Part shown: one piece after another, positions 39,201 through 48,957 of the stretch
Numbering within the stretch: the first letter of the stretch is position 1
How the letters are laid out: every line of letters starts with the position of its first letter
Assembly (NCBI GenBank): GCA_947499715.1
Contig: CANMPL010000003.1
Span: forward strand, 62,001 to 126,000
Source: an uncultured Paracoccaceae bacterium
Lineage (GTDB): Bacteria > Pseudomonadota > Alphaproteobacteria > Rhodobacterales > Rhodobacteraceae
Direction: 5' to 3'
DNA length: 64,000 bases
Program-made: the position numbers and the translations under genes
The notes under the pieces: model-generated
What the model saw: the letters and a program-made list of their open reading frames with translations, nothing else
The model's database searches: none
Told to the model about the DNA's origin: nothing

Positions 39201-40133
39201 TTATTCTTGATTTTTAAGCGCCCGGTCGCCCACGCGCATAATTTCCCACTCTAGCGTGATCCCGCTAGTAGCGTAAACCTTTTTCCGGACCATTTCGCCC
39301 AAATCCTCAAGGTCTTTTGCGCTCGCTCCGCCGACGTTGGTCAGAAAGTTTGAATGCATCTCATTCATCACCGCCTGACCCAGCTTTGCGCCACGCATGC
39401 CCGCGTCATCAATCACCTTCCAGGCCTTCAGCTCGTGGCTGTCATCATCACGCCCCGTGCTGGAAAAGCCCGCTGGGTTACGAAACGTGCTACCCGCCGT
39501 GCGGTCCTTGGTGGGCTGCGTTTCATCACGCTTGGCCAATTGCGCGTCCATCCGCGCCGCCAGCGCTTCGGGATCGCCCGCAGGTCCCCGCAGCGTCGCC
39601 GAGATCAGAACAGCTCCGTCCAGTAACTGGCTGGACCGATAGGCAAATTGCAGATCATCCGGCCCCAGCGTCACCCGACTGCCGTCGCGCAGGATCACCT
39701 CGGCGCTTTGGAAAACATCCGCTGTATAGGACCCATAGCACCCTGCATTCATCCGCACCGCACCACCGATGGACCCGGGGATCGTGCGTAGAAACGTCAG
39801 ATCCACACCCGCCTCAGCCGCTTTGCGCGCCACATGGGCATCCAGCGCCGCCGCCCCTGCCGTCACCGTGTCGCCGTCGACCTCAATCCCGTTGAACCCA
39901 CGGCCAAGGCGCACCACAACACCGCGCACCCCGCCATCCCGCACGATCAGATTAGACCCCACGCCCATCGGAAACACCGGCACATCCGGATCAAGACTGC
40001 GCAAAAAGTCGCGCAGATCATCGGCATCGGCAGGCTGAAACAGCACATCCGCAGGCCCGCCCACCCGCAGCCACGTCAAGCTGTCGAGCGGGCGATTCTT
40101 CGTCAATGTGCCGCGCACTTCAGGCAGTTGCAT
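39201..40133 (-). CDS. murB: UDP-N-acetylenolpyruvoylglucosamine reductase
   Basis: FAD- and NADPH-dependent enzyme (310 aa) that forms UDP-MurNAc. FAD-binding motifs [22 protein letters not shown] and [14 protein letters not shown] are present; the catalytic Ser lies in G-S-T-F-R-N-P and the Glu near [10 protein letters not shown] type II MurB lacking the YxxxxR insertion. Its start overlaps the upstream 97-aa membrane protein by 14 bp. Confidence 0.97.
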
Positions 40134-40650: not shown

Positions 40651-41427
40651 ATGAGCGAACAAAATCACATTGAGCGGCGCGTTTTCAATGAATGCGCTAT
40701 CCAGATTGCCTATTTTGTCCATAAGCATTGTCAGCAAAGGGACGGCCCAGACGCGGGCGTGCAGTGGGGCGCCTGGACCAGCGAATGGCAACAGGGTTGC
40801 CACCTGCTGAAGTCCATCGGGTTATTGCGCGAATGTGAAGCGCATTCCTGGTACGATTGGACGATCGCGCAGCAGGACGTGCGACAGCACATTGAATCTT
40901 TGGAACTGGGTCCTCGCCACAATCTCGACGACTTCATCGGCAGTTTTATTTCGCTCACCAGCTTTCATGGCCACCTGTCCGATGAGCGTGCGCCCTTTGA
41001 AGTTGATGGCGAATTGCACCCCGCCATGTGGTCCTTGGTTGAAATGGGATATGCATCCCGCGAACCCTCAGGCTTTCAATGGTCAGAAAAAATCGCGCCA
41101 ATCATGATAGAGCAGGTTCTTTGGACCAATGAAGGGGTCCCCTTTTCAACCCAGTCAAAAGACGACCGCCAGGCGCTGGGTGAAAAGATATGGGACAGCT
41201 TGCCGATCTGGCGCCGCTACTGGCTTGCCCATCGCATCGCCGGGATGAAAAGATCTGACGTCCATCACTATATTCTTATGCGATGGACGGGAGAGACTTT
41301 GACGCACTTCAAAATCCCACCTCCGAAAACGTCAAAGGAATGGCGCATGATTCCCGCCGACCTCCCGGCAGCGACGGATTTCGTTATTGAGCGCCTAATC
41401 AGTGTGCGGAAAAGCTGGAGGATCTAA
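40651..41427 (+). CDS. Unknown 258-aa protein, opposite strand within the dcw cluster
   Basis: Soluble-looking protein with many aromatic and His residues; Trp-rich stretches include V-Q-W-G-A-W-T-S-E-W and I-W-D-S-L-P-I-W-R-R-Y-W-L. No signal peptide or membrane helix, and no domain recognised. It is the only rightward gene between murB and murC, more AT-rich than its neighbours, and 237 bp of non-coding sequence precede it. Both points suggest an inserted gene with its own promoter. A palindrome TGTCAA-T-TTGACA lies about 100 bp upstream. Confidence 0.7.
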   Translation: MSEQNHIERRVFNECAIQIAYFVHKHCQQRDGPDAGVQWGAWTSEWQQGCHLLKSIGLLRECEAHSWYDWTIAQQDVRQHIESLELGPRHNLDDFIGSFISLTSFHGHLSDERAPFEVDGELHPAMWSLVEMGYASREPSGFQWSEKIAPIMIEQVLWTNEGVPFSTQSKDDRQALGEKIWDSLPIWRRYWLAHRIAGMKRSDVHHYILMRWTGETLTHFKIPPPKTSKEWRMIPADLPAATDFVIERLISVRKSWRI

Positions 41428-41467: not shown

Positions 41468-41761
41468 TCACTCCGCCTTCCGATCATCCTTGCGCCGCAT
41501 CAGCCAGCCCAACAGCGCCCCCGATAACGTGCCGATCATCGCCGGCACAAAGAACAACATCGCCCAAGAAATCGCGAGCAGCGGGTCAATGCCCAGCCGC
41601 CCGTCCGCGCCCCAGACCAAGATCCACAGCATTGCGCCAATCACCGACCCAAGCGTCAGCGCCAGCCCGTTTTTGCCCATCCGCACCAGATAACCGACAA
41701 TGCCAAATGGGATGAACGCGCCCACCACCATAATCCCAAAGACGACAATCCCGCCGCCCAT
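41468..41761 (-). CDS. Small membrane protein (97 aa) of the murC-murB interval
   Basis: Three hydrophobic segments with a Gly-rich start and a basic C-terminus R-R-K-D-D-R-K. Its ATG shares a base with the stop of the DUF2484-like gene (TGATG), so it is translated in the same operon. Not recognised. Convergent with the 258-aa orphan, 40 bp apart. Confidence 0.65.
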   Translation of the reverse strand: MGGGIVVFGIMVVGAFIPFGIVGYLVRMGKNGLALTLGSVIGAMLWILVWGADGRLGIDPLLAISWAMLFFVPAMIGTLSGALLGWLMRRKDDRKAE

Positions 41762-42030
41762 CAGCCCGGCAACCTAGCCCGCAACCAGCGGCCCAGATAG
41801 ATCAGCGGCCAGCGCAGAATGCTCGCCCCGGCCGCCAGAAACGCGAGCCCAATCCACGGCCCAAAGGCATAGGTGATCCACCCCAAAAGCGGCACCCCCA
41901 GCGCAATCAGCACATAGGCCCGCCGCCAATGATTATCGCGGCTCGGGATCATCCCCAAAAGGTTCGCCGTGACCAGCCAGACCAGCCCCATCACGATGGG
42001 CAGATAGTTCAGGATCCAGACAAAGCTCAT
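41761..42030 (-). CDS. DUF2484-like membrane protein, second copy
   Basis: An 89-aa protein with three membrane segments. The C-terminal motif A-S-I-L-R-W-P-L-I-Y-L-G-R-W parallels V-S-M-F-R-N-P-L-I-Y-I-Y-R-R in the preceding gene, indicating a tandem duplication. DUF2484 proteins are typical of this dcw location in Rhodobacterales as far as I recall; their role is unknown. Overlaps the upstream copy by ATGA and the downstream gene by TGATG. Confidence 0.7.
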   Translation of the reverse strand: MSFVWILNYLPIVMGLVWLVTANLLGMIPSRDNHWRRAYVLIALGVPLLGWITYAFGPWIGLAFLAAGASILRWPLIYLGRWLRARLPG

Positions 42031-42281
42031 TTCGGTCTTTCCGGCCTCTCGCCCCTTGCGCGGCGGTAAATGTAGATCAACGGGTTGCGGAACATCGACA
42101 CAAAGCCCGCCGCCGCCAAAATGCCCACGATCAGCCCGTAGTCAACGCCTAACCAGACAATAACCACCGGCGCGAGGCACAACAACGTGATCCCCGGCGC
42201 ATATTGCCGCTTCATCGGCAAAAAGGCCGTTGCGGTGGCAGCCAGCACCCAAAGGATCGCGATGATGACAGATAGGGTCAC
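42027..42281 (-). CDS. DUF2484 family membrane protein
   Basis: An 84-aa protein with about three hydrophobic segments, L-P-M-K-R-Q-Y in the first loop and the C-terminal G-F-V-S-M-F-R-N-P-L-I-Y typical of DUF2484. The start is GTG at 42281, directly after the stop of the 508-aa gene, with GGGAG upstream. The family is found between murC and murB in Rhodobacterales, so an envelope or division role is likely but unproven. Confidence 0.8.
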   Translation of the reverse strand: MTLSVIIAILWVLAATATAFLPMKRQYAPGITLLCLAPVVIVWLGVDYGLIVGILAAAGFVSMFRNPLIYIYRRARGERPERPK

Positions 42282-43808
42282 CTATGTGACTCCCTTCAAG
42301 AATGCCGCGACAAACTCCCGGAATGCAGGGCTTGCCAGCCACGCCAAGCCGCCGCCCGTCGCCGTCGCACCTGTCACAACAACACCCACCTTTTTCGTCG
42401 TATCAGCCGTTTCATCCAACACCGGCTTTGCCGCGCGGTAACTCCGCACCAATAGCCCCGCACCGCGCTGATTGGCTTGTTCAAGGGCCTCAACATCCTT
42501 CGCATCACCATTTAGCGTATCGACAACCTGTTCCAACGCACCCTGAAGATCTGGGTCACTCGCATCGGTCAGCGCCTGCGCCCCTTCCACAATCAGCGGG
42601 ACCGCGTCTGCCACGACCCTTGGCCGCGTCTTGTTATGCCAAGCCCGCACATCATCATTCAATGCCGCCAATTCTATCTGCACATCCTCAAGGATAAGCT
42701 GAAAGTCTTTTATTTTCGTGTCTTGCTCAGGCGTCGGGCAGTCACCTGTCTCGGCCTTATGCGCCAACCGCCGCAACACGCGGGTGACGGTTTTCATGAC
42801 GTGAATGGGCCGCTTGGCATAGCGGGTTTCCGCATCTTCCAGCAGTGCCAGTTCATCCGCCAAAGGCTGATAGGCATTGGAAAGCCCGTCACTGCCGTCA
42901 AATATGCGCCTTGCCGCCGCCATCTCTTCGAGAATGACAGACAGGTCGTCTGCATCAATCTGATCCCTCGGGCGCAAAACCAGCAGGTTCTGTTTGGGAT
43001 CAAACTCAACCGTTTCACCAATCGGTGTGGCATCAACGACGGCCTGCTCATCCTCCGCCCGATAAAGCGCCAACACCTCATCGAACTTGCCATTGATGAC
43101 AACCGGATCACCTTGCCAATCCGCTTCCTCGGTGAAGGTCTCCAACACCTTCGCCATCGCGTCTTGGTGCCAATCCCGACCGTCAATCACCCGCTCATAC
43201 CACAGAATCCAGACCTCCCATGATGGATCATGGGCGCGCATGGCTTGCTTTGCTGCCACCCAAATCTTGACCATATCCTCCGGCATGCCACCCGGCCAAA
43301 TTCCAGCCTCAGGACCGAGTAAATCAGCCCGAACAAGGGGCCAAATATTAGCAGCATTGGCTGCTTTCATAATTGGGTCGGCGGCGCCGTACATGTCAAC
43401 GTTAGGGCGGCGCGCAGCGACAGCGTAAGAATAGATATCCGCAACAAAGACATGGGCGAACTTTGGGTCGACTGTTCTTGCCTTCCACGCAGCAGCGTTT
43501 CTGGCGTCGGCAGCCATAATATCGACGAACGTGGCGTTGGCGGCATCGGCAACGGCTTGATCAACATCTCTATTGATTGACGAAACAGCCGCAAACATTG
43601 GAATCGAGCTTGCGCCAAAAAACGCGACCGGCGTCAAATTGCGGGTCCGCGCCCAAGGTTCAGTCAAAACCGCCTTCGTCACAATGGGAAGCAATCGTAG
43701 CGCTGCGCGCGACGCGACACGGTTTGCCGCCTTAAGTCGCTCCTCCATTGATATTGAGTTATAATAGAGCTGTAGTGTCGTGCTGTCCTTAACCTGGCTG
43801 GGGTCCAA
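42282..43808 (-). CDS. Unrecognised 508-aa helical repeat protein, one WYER-type repeat
   Basis: Function unknown. N-terminal about 255 residues form one copy of a repeat also present twice in the 815-aa neighbour: R-V-A-S-R-A-A-L-R-L-L-P near 30-41, W-x2-W-x2-W-Y-E-R-V-I-D-G-R-D-W near 197-213, and I-N-G-K-F-D-E-V-L-A-L-Y-R-A-E-D at 238-253. A charged helical region follows, and the C-terminus has one hydrophobic stretch (V-G-V-V-V-T-G-A-T-A) that might anchor it. TTG at 43808 is the chosen start: AAGGGA precedes it, and residues 1-41 then align without gaps to the neighbour. Confidence 0.72.
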   Translation of the reverse strand: MDPSQVKDSTTLQLYYNSISMEERLKAANRVASRAALRLLPIVTKAVLTEPWARTRNLTPVAFFGASSIPMFAAVSSINRDVDQAVADAANATFVDIMAADARNAAAWKARTVDPKFAHVFVADIYSYAVAARRPNVDMYGAADPIMKAANAANIWPLVRADLLGPEAGIWPGGMPEDMVKIWVAAKQAMRAHDPSWEVWILWYERVIDGRDWHQDAMAKVLETFTEEADWQGDPVVINGKFDEVLALYRAEDEQAVVDATPIGETVEFDPKQNLLVLRPRDQIDADDLSVILEEMAAARRIFDGSDGLSNAYQPLADELALLEDAETRYAKRPIHVMKTVTRVLRRLAHKAETGDCPTPEQDTKIKDFQLILEDVQIELAALNDDVRAWHNKTRPRVVADAVPLIVEGAQALTDASDPDLQGALEQVVDTLNGDAKDVEALEQANQRGAGLLVRSYRAAKPVLDETADTTKKVGVVVTGATATGGGLAWLASPAFREFVAAFLKGVT

Positions 43809-43986
43809 TCCCTCATCCCTTCAATAACTAAGACGCTGCTTTTCCATCGTATCTATTGTCTCCGCCTGAGCATAGATCGCCTCAGTGTTTTCAACTGGCT
43901 GTAGGCGCGTGACCGGATCGATTTGCCTCAAAAGCTTTTGTCAAAAGATGAATATGCCCATTGCGGAATAGCATAAGCCAAAGCAC

Positions 43987-46437
43987 TCACCCCCCGAACC
44001 CCGAGGCGACCACCTCGACGATGTCCAAAAGGCTCGTCACCCGCTTGTTCTGCTTGATCACCACATCCGCTGCCTTGCCCACTTGACCCGTGGCCGTCAC
44101 GGACCGCTCAAAGAACCGCGTCAGCGTCAGCCCCAACGCGCCAGAGCTTTGCGCGAACCGGTCCTCCAGCAGGCCCTGAAACGCCTCGGTCGAGGCTTCG
44201 GCAATCGCCGCCCGGTAGGTCCGCAATTCCTGCAACATATCGCGCAGCACCGCGACGCCTTCGACATCCAGCGCCACCATATCGGGGCTTGGCAGGCCTT
44301 CGACAAAGCCAATCGCGTGATCGAAAATCGCGATCACCTGCTCCTGATCCACCTGATCCAGCTTCAGTTGCGCCAGCGGGGCCAGCGCCAGATAGCTTGG
44401 CCCAAAGTGCTGACGACACAGGGTTTTCAGCAACTCGATGCGCGTATCCAGCATCCCCGACAGCGTCTCACCCAGATCGCTCCGCGCGCGCGCATCCTTC
44501 GAGAAGACCTCCAATTCAGAGGCCAGGATCACCAGCCGGTTGGCCCGCAGATGCATCTGATCCTCGGTCCGCGCAAATTCGCCCAGCACCTTTTCGGCCG
44601 CGCGTTTCAGGATGCCCGCATAGTTCCCGCCGGGGGCCAACTCTGACGCATAATCGGCAAAGTCCTGAAACAGATCGCGCACCTCTTCGGCGTCATCGAC
44701 AAAGGCCTGCACGATGCCGGGTTCCTTGAGATGCCCCAGATTATCCGTGATCCCCACCATCCGCATGACCCGCGCGAGCGTGTCAAAGCTGAACTCCACC
44801 GGCGCCGCATCCGCCAATTCCGTCGGAGCGGCCTCCTCGACGTCCTCGCCCCGATAAAGCGCCAACACATCGTCAAACAACGGATTGATATGCGCCGGTC
44901 CGCGTTCCCAGTCTTCTTTTTCAAGGAAGGTGTTGAGGACTTGAGCCAGCGCCTTTGGATGAAGCTCTTCAAACGACAAGATCCGCAGGTACCACGTCCA
45001 CCAGAACGACCAGTCGACCTCATCATTTGCAGCCATCGCCGTTTCCAACCGGTCGAATGCAGCCATCAAACTGCCCGGTGCGTCTTGTCGCCAAAGCACC
45101 TGTGCGCTCTTGTTTTGCAGGTCGTGCCGCACTTCGCCCCACAAATCCACAGCCTCACAGGCCGCGGCCACTGCCGCCACCGCCGCTGGCACTGCATCTT
45201 TCGACACCACCGCCGTCACCGCGGCCGACACCGCCGTCACGCTCGATGACGTCATCCGTGCGAAAGTCGCAACCTTGTTGATATCATCGGGGTCGCCATC
45301 ATTGGGCATCCCCCGTAGTGCCGCAACGCTAGCCCCACCTATCGTCTCTTCCGCTGCCCGCGCCGCCGCCAATGACGTCGCATATGCTGCGCCATTACTC
45401 ACGACGCCCGGCGCTGCGTCTTCCACACTTGCAACGACCAAGGCCCCCAAAACCGGCACCGTCCAAAGGTTTTTCAGGCTATCCTCAACCCGAGGCCCAT
45501 ACGCTTGCATCGCAAAGGGCAGCACCCGCGCCGCCGCCCGAAACGCCACGCGCCGTGCGACTCGCTGCACTTCATCCTCAGGCAAGCGGCGCAGATAGAC
45601 CTCAAGGCTTTCCTTGTCCCGCACATCGCGCGCATCCCGCCCTTCCATCTGCCGGAAGTCCGCCAATATCTCATCGAACATTGGGTTCACCTCAGCGGCC
45701 AAATAGGCCGGCCGCCCGATCACCCCCACAAGCAGCCCCGGCATCTGCGATGTCAGGACGTCTCGCCCGTCCAGCAACCGCTCGTACCACGCGACCCAGA
45801 ACGCCCAATGTGCCGATTTGTCTTCTAACATCAGAACCTTGGCGGACGCCCAAGCCTTTGCCACTGACCCCGGCACCTCACCGGACAACCACAACGGCGC
45901 GTCCAGCCCCCAGTCTTTGCCGACGGCCCACGTCAGATCTGCCCGCACAGCCCCCCATGCCAGATCATTGGCATAGGCGTTTTCCTCCAACTCGTGCAGG
46001 GCATCGGCGCAAACCGCACAGGCTGCGCCCATCCCTTCCACGCCCCGCTCGCGGTCCATCACAATCGCCACTGCATACAATCCATTTGACGTGGCCGCCG
46101 CCCGGTCAAATGCATGGGCGGCATTGGTCAGCGCATCCAGATATTCCATCTGCGCCGACAGCTTCATCCGTAGCCCGGCCGGGTCGCCACCATAGACCAC
46201 AGGATCCGGGTGCGCCGATTCCACCACGCCCATCAAAAGCGCCAACCACCCCTCCATCGGAGTGTACCCGTGCTTCTTGGGTCGTGGAGAGCTCAGCAGG
46301 AAATGCACCGCATAAGGCATGACCCGCGCCGCGGCCCTGGCGGCAAGCCGGTGAGACAGCTGCCGCGCCAATGCCGGATGGGTCGTCGTCAGAAATCGCG
46401 CAAGGCTGTCAGCGTCCTGAACCTCCGCAATCTCCAC
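43987..46437 (-). CDS. Unrecognised 816-codon helical repeat protein, two WYER-type repeats
   Basis: About 815-816 aa, no recognised family. Two tandem repeats of about 265 residues: R-L-A-A-R-A-A-A-R-V-M-P-Y-A (30-43) matches R-V-A-F-R-A-A-A-R-V-L-P-F-A (296-309); W-A-F-W-V-A-W-Y-E-R (211-220) matches W-S-F-W-W-T-W-Y-L-R (476-485); N-P-M-F-D-E-I-L matches N-P-L-F-D-D-V-L. A long charged helical C-terminal part (about 540-816) follows. GTG start at 46437, 4 bp after murC, with AAGGGG upstream, so it is read from the murC transcript. No signal peptide. Confidence 0.75.
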   Translation of the reverse strand: MEIAEVQDADSLARFLTTTHPALARQLSHRLAARAAARVMPYAVHFLLSSPRPKKHGYTPMEGWLALLMGVVESAHPDPVVYGGDPAGLRMKLSAQMEYLDALTNAAHAFDRAAATSNGLYAVAIVMDRERGVEGMGAACAVCADALHELEENAYANDLAWGAVRADLTWAVGKDWGLDAPLWLSGEVPGSVAKAWASAKVLMLEDKSAHWAFWVAWYERLLDGRDVLTSQMPGLLVGVIGRPAYLAAEVNPMFDEILADFRQMEGRDARDVRDKESLEVYLRRLPEDEVQRVARRVAFRAAARVLPFAMQAYGPRVEDSLKNLWTVPVLGALVVASVEDAAPGVVSNGAAYATSLAAARAAEETIGGASVAALRGMPNDGDPDDINKVATFARMTSSSVTAVSAAVTAVVSKDAVPAAVAAVAAACEAVDLWGEVRHDLQNKSAQVLWRQDAPGSLMAAFDRLETAMAANDEVDWSFWWTWYLRILSFEELHPKALAQVLNTFLEKEDWERGPAHINPLFDDVLALYRGEDVEEAAPTELADAAPVEFSFDTLARVMRMVGITDNLGHLKEPGIVQAFVDDAEEVRDLFQDFADYASELAPGGNYAGILKRAAEKVLGEFARTEDQMHLRANRLVILASELEVFSKDARARSDLGETLSGMLDTRIELLKTLCRQHFGPSYLALAPLAQLKLDQVDQEQVIAIFDHAIGFVEGLPSPDMVALDVEGVAVLRDMLQELRTYRAAIAEASTEAFQGLLEDRFAQSSGALGLTLTRFFERSVTATGQVGKAADVVIKQNKRVTSLLDIVEVVASGFGG

Positions 46438-46441
46438 GCCT

Positions 46442-47842
46442 TTACCCCTTCAGCCGCTCCGGCAATGCATTTGCCCAAGTGCTGATTGTACCAGCCCCAA
46501 GGCAAACCACCATATCACCGTCCGTCGCTTGTTCGCGCACCAGCCGTTCCAGATCATCCTCGGAGGCCACAGCCCGCGCGTGACGGTGTCCGTGGCGGAT
46601 CAATCCGGCCACCAGATCATCACGCTCGGCCCCGGGGATCACATCCTCGCCCGCGCTGAACACATCCGCAATGCCCACCACATCCGCGTCATTAAAACAC
46701 GCACAGAATTCATCGAAATGATGGCTCAACCGGCTGTAGCGATGCGGCTGATGCACCGCGATCACGCGGCCATCTGTCGCCTGTCGCGCGGCTTTCAGCA
46801 CGGCTGCAATCTCAACCGGGTGGTGGCCGTAATCATCAATGATCGTGACACCGCCAACTTCGCCGACACGGGTAAAGCGCCGGTTCACGCCACCAAACCC
46901 CTTTAACGCCGCCTTAATCTCGGCCTGCTTCATCCCCAGATGCCGCGCCACGGCCACCGCCGACAAAGCGTTCGAGACGTTATGATCCCCCGGCATCGGC
47001 AATTCGCAGCCTTCAATCACCAGCCCCTCGGCCTGCAAAGCCACATCAAAATGCGCGACCCCGGCCTTATAGGTCAGGTTCACCGCCCGCACATCCGCCT
47101 GCGCGTTAAACCCATAAGTCACCACGCGGCGGTCGGTAATCTTGCCCACCAAAGCCTGCACGTCCGGGTCATCGGTGCAGCACACCGCCAGCCCGTAAAA
47201 CGGAATGCCAGAGACGAACTCATAAAACCCCTGATGCAGCGCCTCTTCGGTGCCCCAGTGTTCCATATGTTCCGGGTCGATATTGGTCACAATCGCAATG
47301 GTCGCAGGCAAACGGTTAAAGGTGCCGTCACTCTCGTCGGCTTCCACCACCATCCACTCGCCCTGCCCCATGCGCGCGTTGGACCCATAGGCATGAATGA
47401 TCCCGCCGTTGATCACCGTGGGGTCAATCCCGCCCTCGTCCAACAGTGCCGCCACCATCGTTGTGGTCGTCGTCTTGCCGTGGGTGCCAGCAACGGCCAC
47501 GTTGGACTTCAGCCGCATCAGCTCGGCCAGCATCTCCGCCCGGCGCACAATCGGCAGCCCCGCAGCACGGGCCGCATCCAGCTCCGGGTTGCCCGGCTTG
47601 ATCGCGCTAGAGATTACGACGACCTCTGCCGCTTCCAAATTCTCGGCCACTTGGCCCACAAAAACCTTCGCGCCCAGCCGCGCCAACCGCTCGGTGATCG
47701 GCGTCGCCTTCAGGTCCGACCCCTGCACGGTATAGCCGTGGTTCAGCAGCACCTCGGCGATGCCCGACATCCCAATCCCGCCGATCCCCACAAAGTGGAT
47801 CGCACCTACATCCAATGGCAGTTTTGTCGCTGCTGCATTCAT
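46442..47842 (-). CDS. murC: UDP-N-acetylmuramate--L-alanine ligase
   Basis: ATP-dependent Mur ligase (466 aa) adding L-Ala to UDP-MurNAc. [10 protein letters not shown] at the N-terminal nucleotide fold, ATP loop G-T-H-G-K-T at 119-124, and the C-terminal H-Q-P-H-R-Y-S-R motif are intact. ATG at 47842 was preferred over 47863, which overlaps the murG stop; both are feasible. Follows murG closely and is followed after 4 bp by the 816-codon unknown gene. Confidence 0.97.
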
Positions 47843-47859
47843 AACCTGACTTCCATCCA

Positions 47860-48957
47860 TCATTTCGCGGCACCACCCTCTGCCAGAGTTTCAACAAGCG
47901 CCACAAGCCGCTCCGTAGCGTCCGGCCTGCCGCACGACAAGGCCGCAATGGCCATCTGAAGCGCCCCATCCGGGTTGCCCAGCACATTTTCCACCTGCTC
48001 TGACAGCGCCTCGGGCGTGAATGTGCTCTCAGGCATCAAAATCGCGGCCCCCGCATCCACCATCTGTCGCGCATTTGCCGATTGCTCATCCCGGATCGCA
48101 CTGGCGAGCGGCACAAAAATCGCAGGTCGCCCAATGACACTCACGTCCGCCACCGTTGACGCCCCGGACCGCCCAATAAACAACTGCGCCTCGGCCAGCC
48201 GTTCTGGCACATCCTTGAAAAACGTCTGCACCTCCGCCGGAATCCCCATTTCGGCGTAATAGGCCTGCACCCGCTCCAGATCCTCTTCGCGGGCCTGATG
48301 CGCCACCCGCAGATGATGGCGCATATTCTCCGGCAAGGCGGCCAGCGCGCGCGGCACCACGTCCGACAAGATCCGCGCGCCCTGGCTGCCCCCCATCACC
48401 ATCACCGACATCGGATAATCACCGGGCGGAATATAGGACGCGCCCGCACGTTCCAAAATCGTCGCCCGCACCGGGTTGCCCGTATGCTCACCCACCACGC
48501 CGTCAGGCAGTTCCGTCGGCCAGGTGCCACAGGCAATCTGATCAACGCGCCGCGCAAACAGCTGATTGACCCGCCCCAGCACGCCGTTTTGCTCATGGAT
48601 CATCCGTGGCACGCGCAGCACCCAGGCCGCCGCCATCGCCGGGATCGCGGGATAGCCACCAAATCCCACAACCACATCAGGCCGGTCGCGCAGCATCCGC
48701 CACTTGGCCATGCCGATCCCGCCCAAAATCCGAAACGGCACGGCAATCTTTGCCAAAGCCCCACCCCGCGCAAAGGTGGCAGAGCCCACAACATTCAACT
48801 CAACCGCACCCGGGAAACCGCCGGTATATCGCGCCCCACGCGCATCCGTGCTCAGCTTCACCCGCCACCCCTTGGCCAGCATCGCCTCGGCCAGCGCTTG
48901 GGCCGGGAACATATGCCCGCCCGTGCCCCCCGCCGCGATGACCATCAATTTACCCAC
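47860..48957 (-). CDS. murG: UDP-GlcNAc--lipid I GlcNAc transferase
   Basis: Peripheral membrane glycosyltransferase (365 aa) converting lipid I to lipid II. Glycine-rich loops [11 protein letters not shown] and G-G-S-Q-G-A are diagnostic. A GTG start at 48957 is favoured because AAGGA sits 8 bp upstream; ATG at 48966 would be placed directly against that site, and ATG at 48945 is a further option. A dispersed hairpin/ATATTT module (copy C) lies immediately upstream and supplies the ribosome-binding site. Confidence 0.96.

Follow-up and report, generated by a model that had tools for sequence, protein, structure and literature searches.

The 64,000-nucleotide stretch analysed here (the window; part of contig CANMPL010000003.1 of an uncultured Paracoccaceae bacterium) carries two genes, A and B, between the cell-wall genes murC and murB. 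Their family is undescribed in the libraries that we searched and looks more like part of an arms race than like cell-wall machinery. Across public genomes, it combines a constant N-terminal domain (N-domain), recurring sites and patchy presence with a gene-exact swap, swaps of C-terminal modules and purifying selection. Conserved gene order is classically illustrated by the cell-wall cluster, yet one of its slots is hypervariable here: complete genes and tail modules swap between species, while the flanks of sister species stay nearly identical. We tentatively propose, with a confidence that falls short of even, that A and B represent undescribed single-gene modular conflict proteins of the Rhodobacterales. 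In such proteins, a constant N-domain would carry one of at least four common exchangeable C-modules. Gene-exact cassettes would move through the core genome with the murC–murB interval as their main slot, and an operon of essential enzymes would also serve as a place for trading immune-type alleles.

A constant N-domain and its exchangeable C-modules

A model-made first-pass annotation of the window had described two open reading frames of 816 and 508 codons that share a repeat, present twice in the larger protein and once in the smaller. Both frames lie where it had placed them on the minus strand, and A and B match each other with a blastp E-value of 7e-23. An iterated profile retrieves the N-domain twice in A (both at 3e-54) and once in B (4e-48), a similarity far beyond chance. 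The three consensus motifs of the annotation were seen by eye in all three copies. Moreover, the R, P, W, W and Y of these motifs, together with one further W, are invariant in 38 family rows. The family had also been called unrecognised, in line with our profile searches: neither protein matches a Pfam (best 0.77) or NCBIfam (best 0.12) family significantly, and PADLOC returns nothing for either. The resemblance of the N-domain to DUF416 (PF04222, structure 3f7c) stays below the level that would indicate kinship between helical proteins, and a profile comparison yielded a probability of 1.3 over 11 columns.

The 38 loci come from public genomes and were found by a profile or motif of the N-domain's end; remote members are therefore missed. 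Two genomes contribute two loci each (L050/L051 from one metagenome-assembled genome, L063/L072 from one contig). Identity to the window proteins is 13–31%, for N-domains and whole family proteins alike. Nearly all loci are labelled as Rhodobacteraceae or as genera within this group, and there is one each from an uncultured Neomegalonema and an uncultured alphaproteobacterium. A wider search of the class gave a match in 8 of 385 genomes, namely the window's own, two of the same family and five outside it.

Grouping by blastp divides the C-terminal parts of 68 proteins into 13 sets, four of which are common, with 25, 15, 9 and 7 members. The C-terminal parts of A and B, of types T3 and T0, are different and nearly all helical, as the first-pass annotation had it. 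AlphaFold2 (AF2) predicted residues 266–816 of A with a mean predicted local distance difference test (pLDDT) score of 80.3. A hydrophobic stretch above a Kyte–Doolittle (KD) value of 1.5 occurs in 28 of the 68 modules. One tail, that of L071, is DUF6161 (PF19658; 47.7 bits, cut-off 27) and the sole Pfam match to this family among the 38 rows; A and B have none. T4 is the only tail type of this kind, comprising L071 by Pfam and L102, which clusters with it by blastp. DUF6161 proteins occur in 8 of 220 genomes of the class, in four of them over the cut-off, and all lack the N-domain. T1 and T2 modules likewise terminate three proteins without an N-domain (L219:1423-2259, minus strand; L220; L221:1075-2043, plus strand), where T1, recognised by 'GHNxPPE', and T2 stand behind other, unnamed N-termini.

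The clearest module swap separates L065 (Roseovarius marisflavi) from L066 (R. lutimaris). Their N-domains are 96.6% identical in amino acids and 97.1% in DNA over 836 bp, above the 85–93% of the flanking pieces, whereas their tails are unrelated (T1 vs T2; the profile comparison of these types gives a probability of 0.3). L245, a T1 locus from the same genus search, shares tail and flanks with L065 and has a diverged, internally shortened N-domain. In this genus search, the domain was found in 5 of 42 regions with three tail types; the 42 regions are 40 plus L065 and L066, and L256 and L066 seem to be one genome. Including L065/L066, ten pairs with different tail types have N-domains 37–97% identical (37–54% in the other nine) and no significant tail similarity; the pairs were hand-picked for differing tails and are not all independent. 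L050/L051, compared outside that choice, are both T0 and come with N-domains 81% identical and tails 21% identical at an E-value of 0.002. When the four main tail types are placed on the N-domain tree, they require 25 changes against a shuffled mean of 25.4, and 96 of 200 shuffles are as low. Tail type thus carries no signal on this tree, and several tail differences fall within its starred clades.

Gene replacement in the murC–murB interval

The first-pass annotation had tied the two genes to the murC–murB interval, and this link is no accident of one genome: murC and/or murB flank 20 of the 38 loci, 17 of them lying between both genes on the same strand and three having one of these flanks within the sequence analysed. 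It is not exclusive, however, as five loci neighbour lepA, two neighbour gatB and 11 lie elsewhere, although 6 of these 11 lie at the edge of a contig and could be wrongly assigned. Further cases at gatB (L210, L212) and lepA (L214) were recognised by eye in other genomes. The site is inherited: on an N-domain tree of 63 rows, its label changes 10 times against 22.2 when shuffled.

Of 295 genomes of the bacterial family, 282 yielded MurC, and we examined 120 murC regions from these 282; they are the first 120 of 132 places hand-picked from a truncated, similarity-ranked list, with places that looked near a contig end omitted, and therefore lean to MurC proteins close to that of the window. In 111 of the 120, murB follows downstream on the same strand, at a median interval of 1042 bp (range 3–4487 bp). 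The N-domain was detected in 16 regions, one of them a remnant, and went undetected in 104; a tblastn count across the 295 genomes gives at least 22. The domain gene stands either directly after murC or just before murB. DUF2484-like genes recur in the interval, with tblastn matches to the first of the window's two such genes in 66 of 111 intervals and to the second in 100. A second recurring occupant is represented by 27 clustered proteins; the single member tested is an amino-acid permease (PF13520; e.g. L141:1459-2652).

Incomplete copies are also seen. In L077 (genome G294), a 79-residue remnant of the N-domain start lies directly after murC; the same genome has another family member beside lepA, recognised by eye. 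In L138, a T0 gene stands ahead of another member of the family, which has a T1 tail and an N-domain broken up into separate open pieces; this copy is a decaying second allele.

Within the window's genus, the slot was compared in six species whose MurC proteins are 92–98% identical to that of the window. The window holds A and B. L202 has A alone, 73% identical, with 9 bp between it and DUF2484, and L203 has A alone, 61–63% identical, followed directly by a 98-aa open reading frame. L200 carries an A-type gene with one repeat (39–42% identical), L201 a single B-type gene (42–45% identical to window B), and in L204 (genome G679) the slot is empty, DUF2484 overlapping the murC stop. The sister species L200 and L201 are close: their MurC proteins are 99.2% identical, synonymous divergence (dS) is 0.147 for murC and 0.116 for murB, and DNA identity is 96.2% through murC and then 98.1% onwards from the start of DUF2484. 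Between these conserved flanks, the two slot genes have no blastn match, so that one gene has been replaced end to end. Exactly one gene differs in the swapped unit, which contains no adjacent immunity gene and no mobility gene; the downstream DUF2484 is shared. Against this background, the window appears to have retained both alleles next to each other.

These data bear on two accounts of the family. The first-pass annotation had suggested a lineage-specific envelope or division system; on such an account, A and B would tune peptidoglycan precursor synthesis and hence be wired to murC. Such a role accords with the preference for murC and murB and with the tight spacing, which the coordinates bear out (4 bp from murC to A, and none between the end of B and the GTG of the first DUF2484 gene). 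However, most murC regions examined are without the domain, the slot is empty in one congener and differently filled in others, a gene-exact replacement separates two of them, the same family adjoins lepA and gatB, and tails are traded. Patchy presence, gene replacement and tail exchange argue against a conserved envelope function, and the hypothesis can account for the striking site preference but not for the replacement data. We regard it as quite unlikely. Alternatively, the proteins could serve interbacterial competition, or resistance or immunity to it, in the manner of polymorphic toxins, with the C-module as toxin or immunity part. A constant N-part joined to an exchangeable C-part is a feature of polymorphic toxins as published (PMC3482391), and the tandem or remnant copies seen in the window, in L138 and in L077 resemble serial displacement. 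Yet the L200/L201 swap involves a single gene without an immunity partner, next to an almost identical downstream gene, and Pfam recognises no secretion, trafficking or pre-toxin domain in A, B or the 38 family rows, although an unfamiliar kind could escape. This makes a competition factor a quite improbable explanation.

Divergence within the genus points to alleles with their own history. Between the window and L202 or L203, dS is 1.10 or 1.21 for A, compared with 0.57 or 0.50 for murC, 0.63 or 0.35 for murB and 0.50 or 0.52 for DUF2484. Faster protein change alone does not explain the raised dS of A; exchange of older alleles does. The ratio of non-synonymous to synonymous divergence (dN/dS) is 0.18–0.27 for A and B where computable (0.19–0.27 for A in five of six pairs, the sixth not being computable) and 0.035–0.075 for murC. 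Both genes are thus under constraint, and A is represented by older alleles that are still constrained.

Purifying selection would also suit a sensing or regulatory protein that diversifies under selection and has a physiological role, such as in membrane stress, as would the membrane-type stretches in part of the C-modules. Minority presence in murC regions and whole-tail exchange would be unusual for a regulator, however, and no regulator domain is recognised in A or B. We consider this explanation unlikely. A selfish or nearly neutral gene persisting by recombination would account for the patchiness, the remnants and the internally shortened copy (L077, L138, L245). This is very improbable given a dN/dS well below 1, the few preferred sites and a swapped unit in L200/L201 that is free of mobility genes.

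Table 1. Positions of genes A and B, their parts and their neighbours in the window.
Feature	Position	Strand	Description
Gene A	43987-46437	minus	816 aa, GTG start; two N-domain repeats and C-module type T3
A, first N-domain repeat	45655-46437	minus	residues 1-261; profile match 3e-54
A, second N-domain repeat	44854-45633	minus	residues 269-528; profile match 3e-54
A, C-module type T3	43990-44853	minus	residues 529-816; nearly all helical; clusters by blastp with 6 other proteins
A–B gap	43809-43986	minus	178 bp
Gene B	42282-43808	minus	508 aa, TTG start; one N-domain and C-module type T0
B, N-domain	43062-43805	minus	residues 2-249; profile match 4e-48
B, C-module type T0	42285-43061	minus	residues 250-508; beta-hairpin, helical bundle, poorly predicted tail; AF2 mean pLDDT 72.6
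murC, upstream flank of slot	46442-47863	minus	Mur ligase domains
First DUF2484 gene, downstream flank of slot	42027-42281	minus	GTG start; PF10658 E 8.9e-11
Second DUF2484 gene	41761-42030	minus	PF10658 E 8.8e-28
Open reading frame within the murC–murB interval	40651-41427	plus	258 aa
murB, far flank of interval	39201-40133	minus	MurB_C, FAD_binding_4

Co-transcription of A with murC is plausible from their spacing, and the GTG start of A is retained in two congeners (Table 1). A and B are not contiguous, a point additional to the first-pass annotation. The two DUF2484 genes stand in tandem (41761-42281, minus strand), and identity between congeners resumes at the first of them. On the opposite strand, the interval also contains a 258-aa open reading frame, which has no Pfam match and no tblastn match in 111 other murC–murB intervals. 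In the congener L203, a LuxR-type regulator occupies about the same place, again on the opposite strand.

The case for a proposed conflict system

A constant N-part, traded tails, exchange of whole alleles, minority presence and selection together fit a conflict system better than a housekeeping function. The specific form that we favour, a single-gene system in which the tail is the effector and whose role is most likely intracellular anti-phage defence, has, with all its steps included, a probability only just short of even. A and B would be two side-by-side alleles of a modular single-gene family residing at few recurring core-genome sites, chiefly murC–murB. The constant N-domain, which spans some 250 residues and carries one of several interchangeable C-modules, may sense or assemble, while the C-module would be the effector and, in part of the family, would probably act on the membrane. 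Whole genes, and C-modules alone, move between species, the probable route being recombination through conserved flanks. The cell-wall operon would then be a transcribed, recombination-prone landing slot and not the functional target.

Several observations weigh against this interpretation. In A and B, searches of Pfam, NCBIfam and PADLOC recognise no toxin, nuclease or TIR domain nor any other effector domain, and neither protein has a hydrophobic stretch at the KD 1.5 threshold. The best PADLOC value among the 38 family rows is 6.6e-4, with one member each. One row matches Pfam MEDS (1.1e-5) and one the unnamed phrog_35196 (3.5e-5). DUF2484 has a dN/dS of 0.14–0.35, as high as that of A, so the level of A alone is not special. 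The separation of the window's two C-modules is also softened, in that a beta-hairpin begins both AF2 models and T0 and T3 are weakly similar over the last 41 columns (hhalign probability 31, E 5e-4). From this sequence comparison, T0 and T3 may be distantly related, in which case A and B could reflect deep divergence instead of a module swap. The N-domain tree is itself weak, with 29 of 60 inner branches open.

The genomic setting gives the conflict reading no clear help either. Many defence genes are mobile. We found no plasmid match with B, L014 and L008 as queries, no phage match with L008 and no viral-contig match with the motif, and single-sequence searches are weak for so divergent a family. 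For the 82 neighbour proteins at the other sites, the first 25 of 70 Pfam families are mainly housekeeping, and the first 25 of 37 PADLOC families are largely of helicase type. Two members each among these neighbours match mad3 and mad8, and the neighbour proteins reveal no clear link to defence islands.

If the family does serve defence or competition, the neighbourhoods of murC–murB, lepA and gatB would be places to seek new systems in a major marine lineage. The naturally swapped pairs L200/L201 and L065/L066 would provide near-isogenic tests of what each module does.

Comparison with known systems

Core genes of the division and cell-wall (dcw) cluster are conserved with the cluster across a lineage, unlike this family, which occupies 16 of 120 murC regions and is absent from the slot of G679. 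With DUF6161 (PF19658), the common point is the C-module of L071, which scores over the cut-off; the difference is that DUF6161 proteins lack the N-domain.

In polymorphic toxins (PMC3482391), recombination generates diverse C-terminal parts on a shared N-terminal part. The family described here resembles them in its constant N-part and exchangeable C-modules. Unlike them, it has no recognised secretion or pre-toxin domain and no cognate immunity gene moving with the toxin in L200/L201, and its C-modules are helical and have no assigned function.

The core defence hotspots cDHS1 and cDHS2 of Pseudomonas aeruginosa contain many distinct immune systems, have median sizes of 26 kb and 6 kb and have been proposed as landing spots for mobile elements (PMC10250203). 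Measured against this description, the murC–murB interval houses one recurring modular family, has a median of 1 kb and showed no link to mobile elements. Its second recurring occupant is an amino-acid permease, and PADLOC gave A and B no match to a known anti-phage family (best among the 38 rows as above). What the two settings have in common is their architecture, in which variable genes, mostly of unknown function, occupy a place between fixed core genes.

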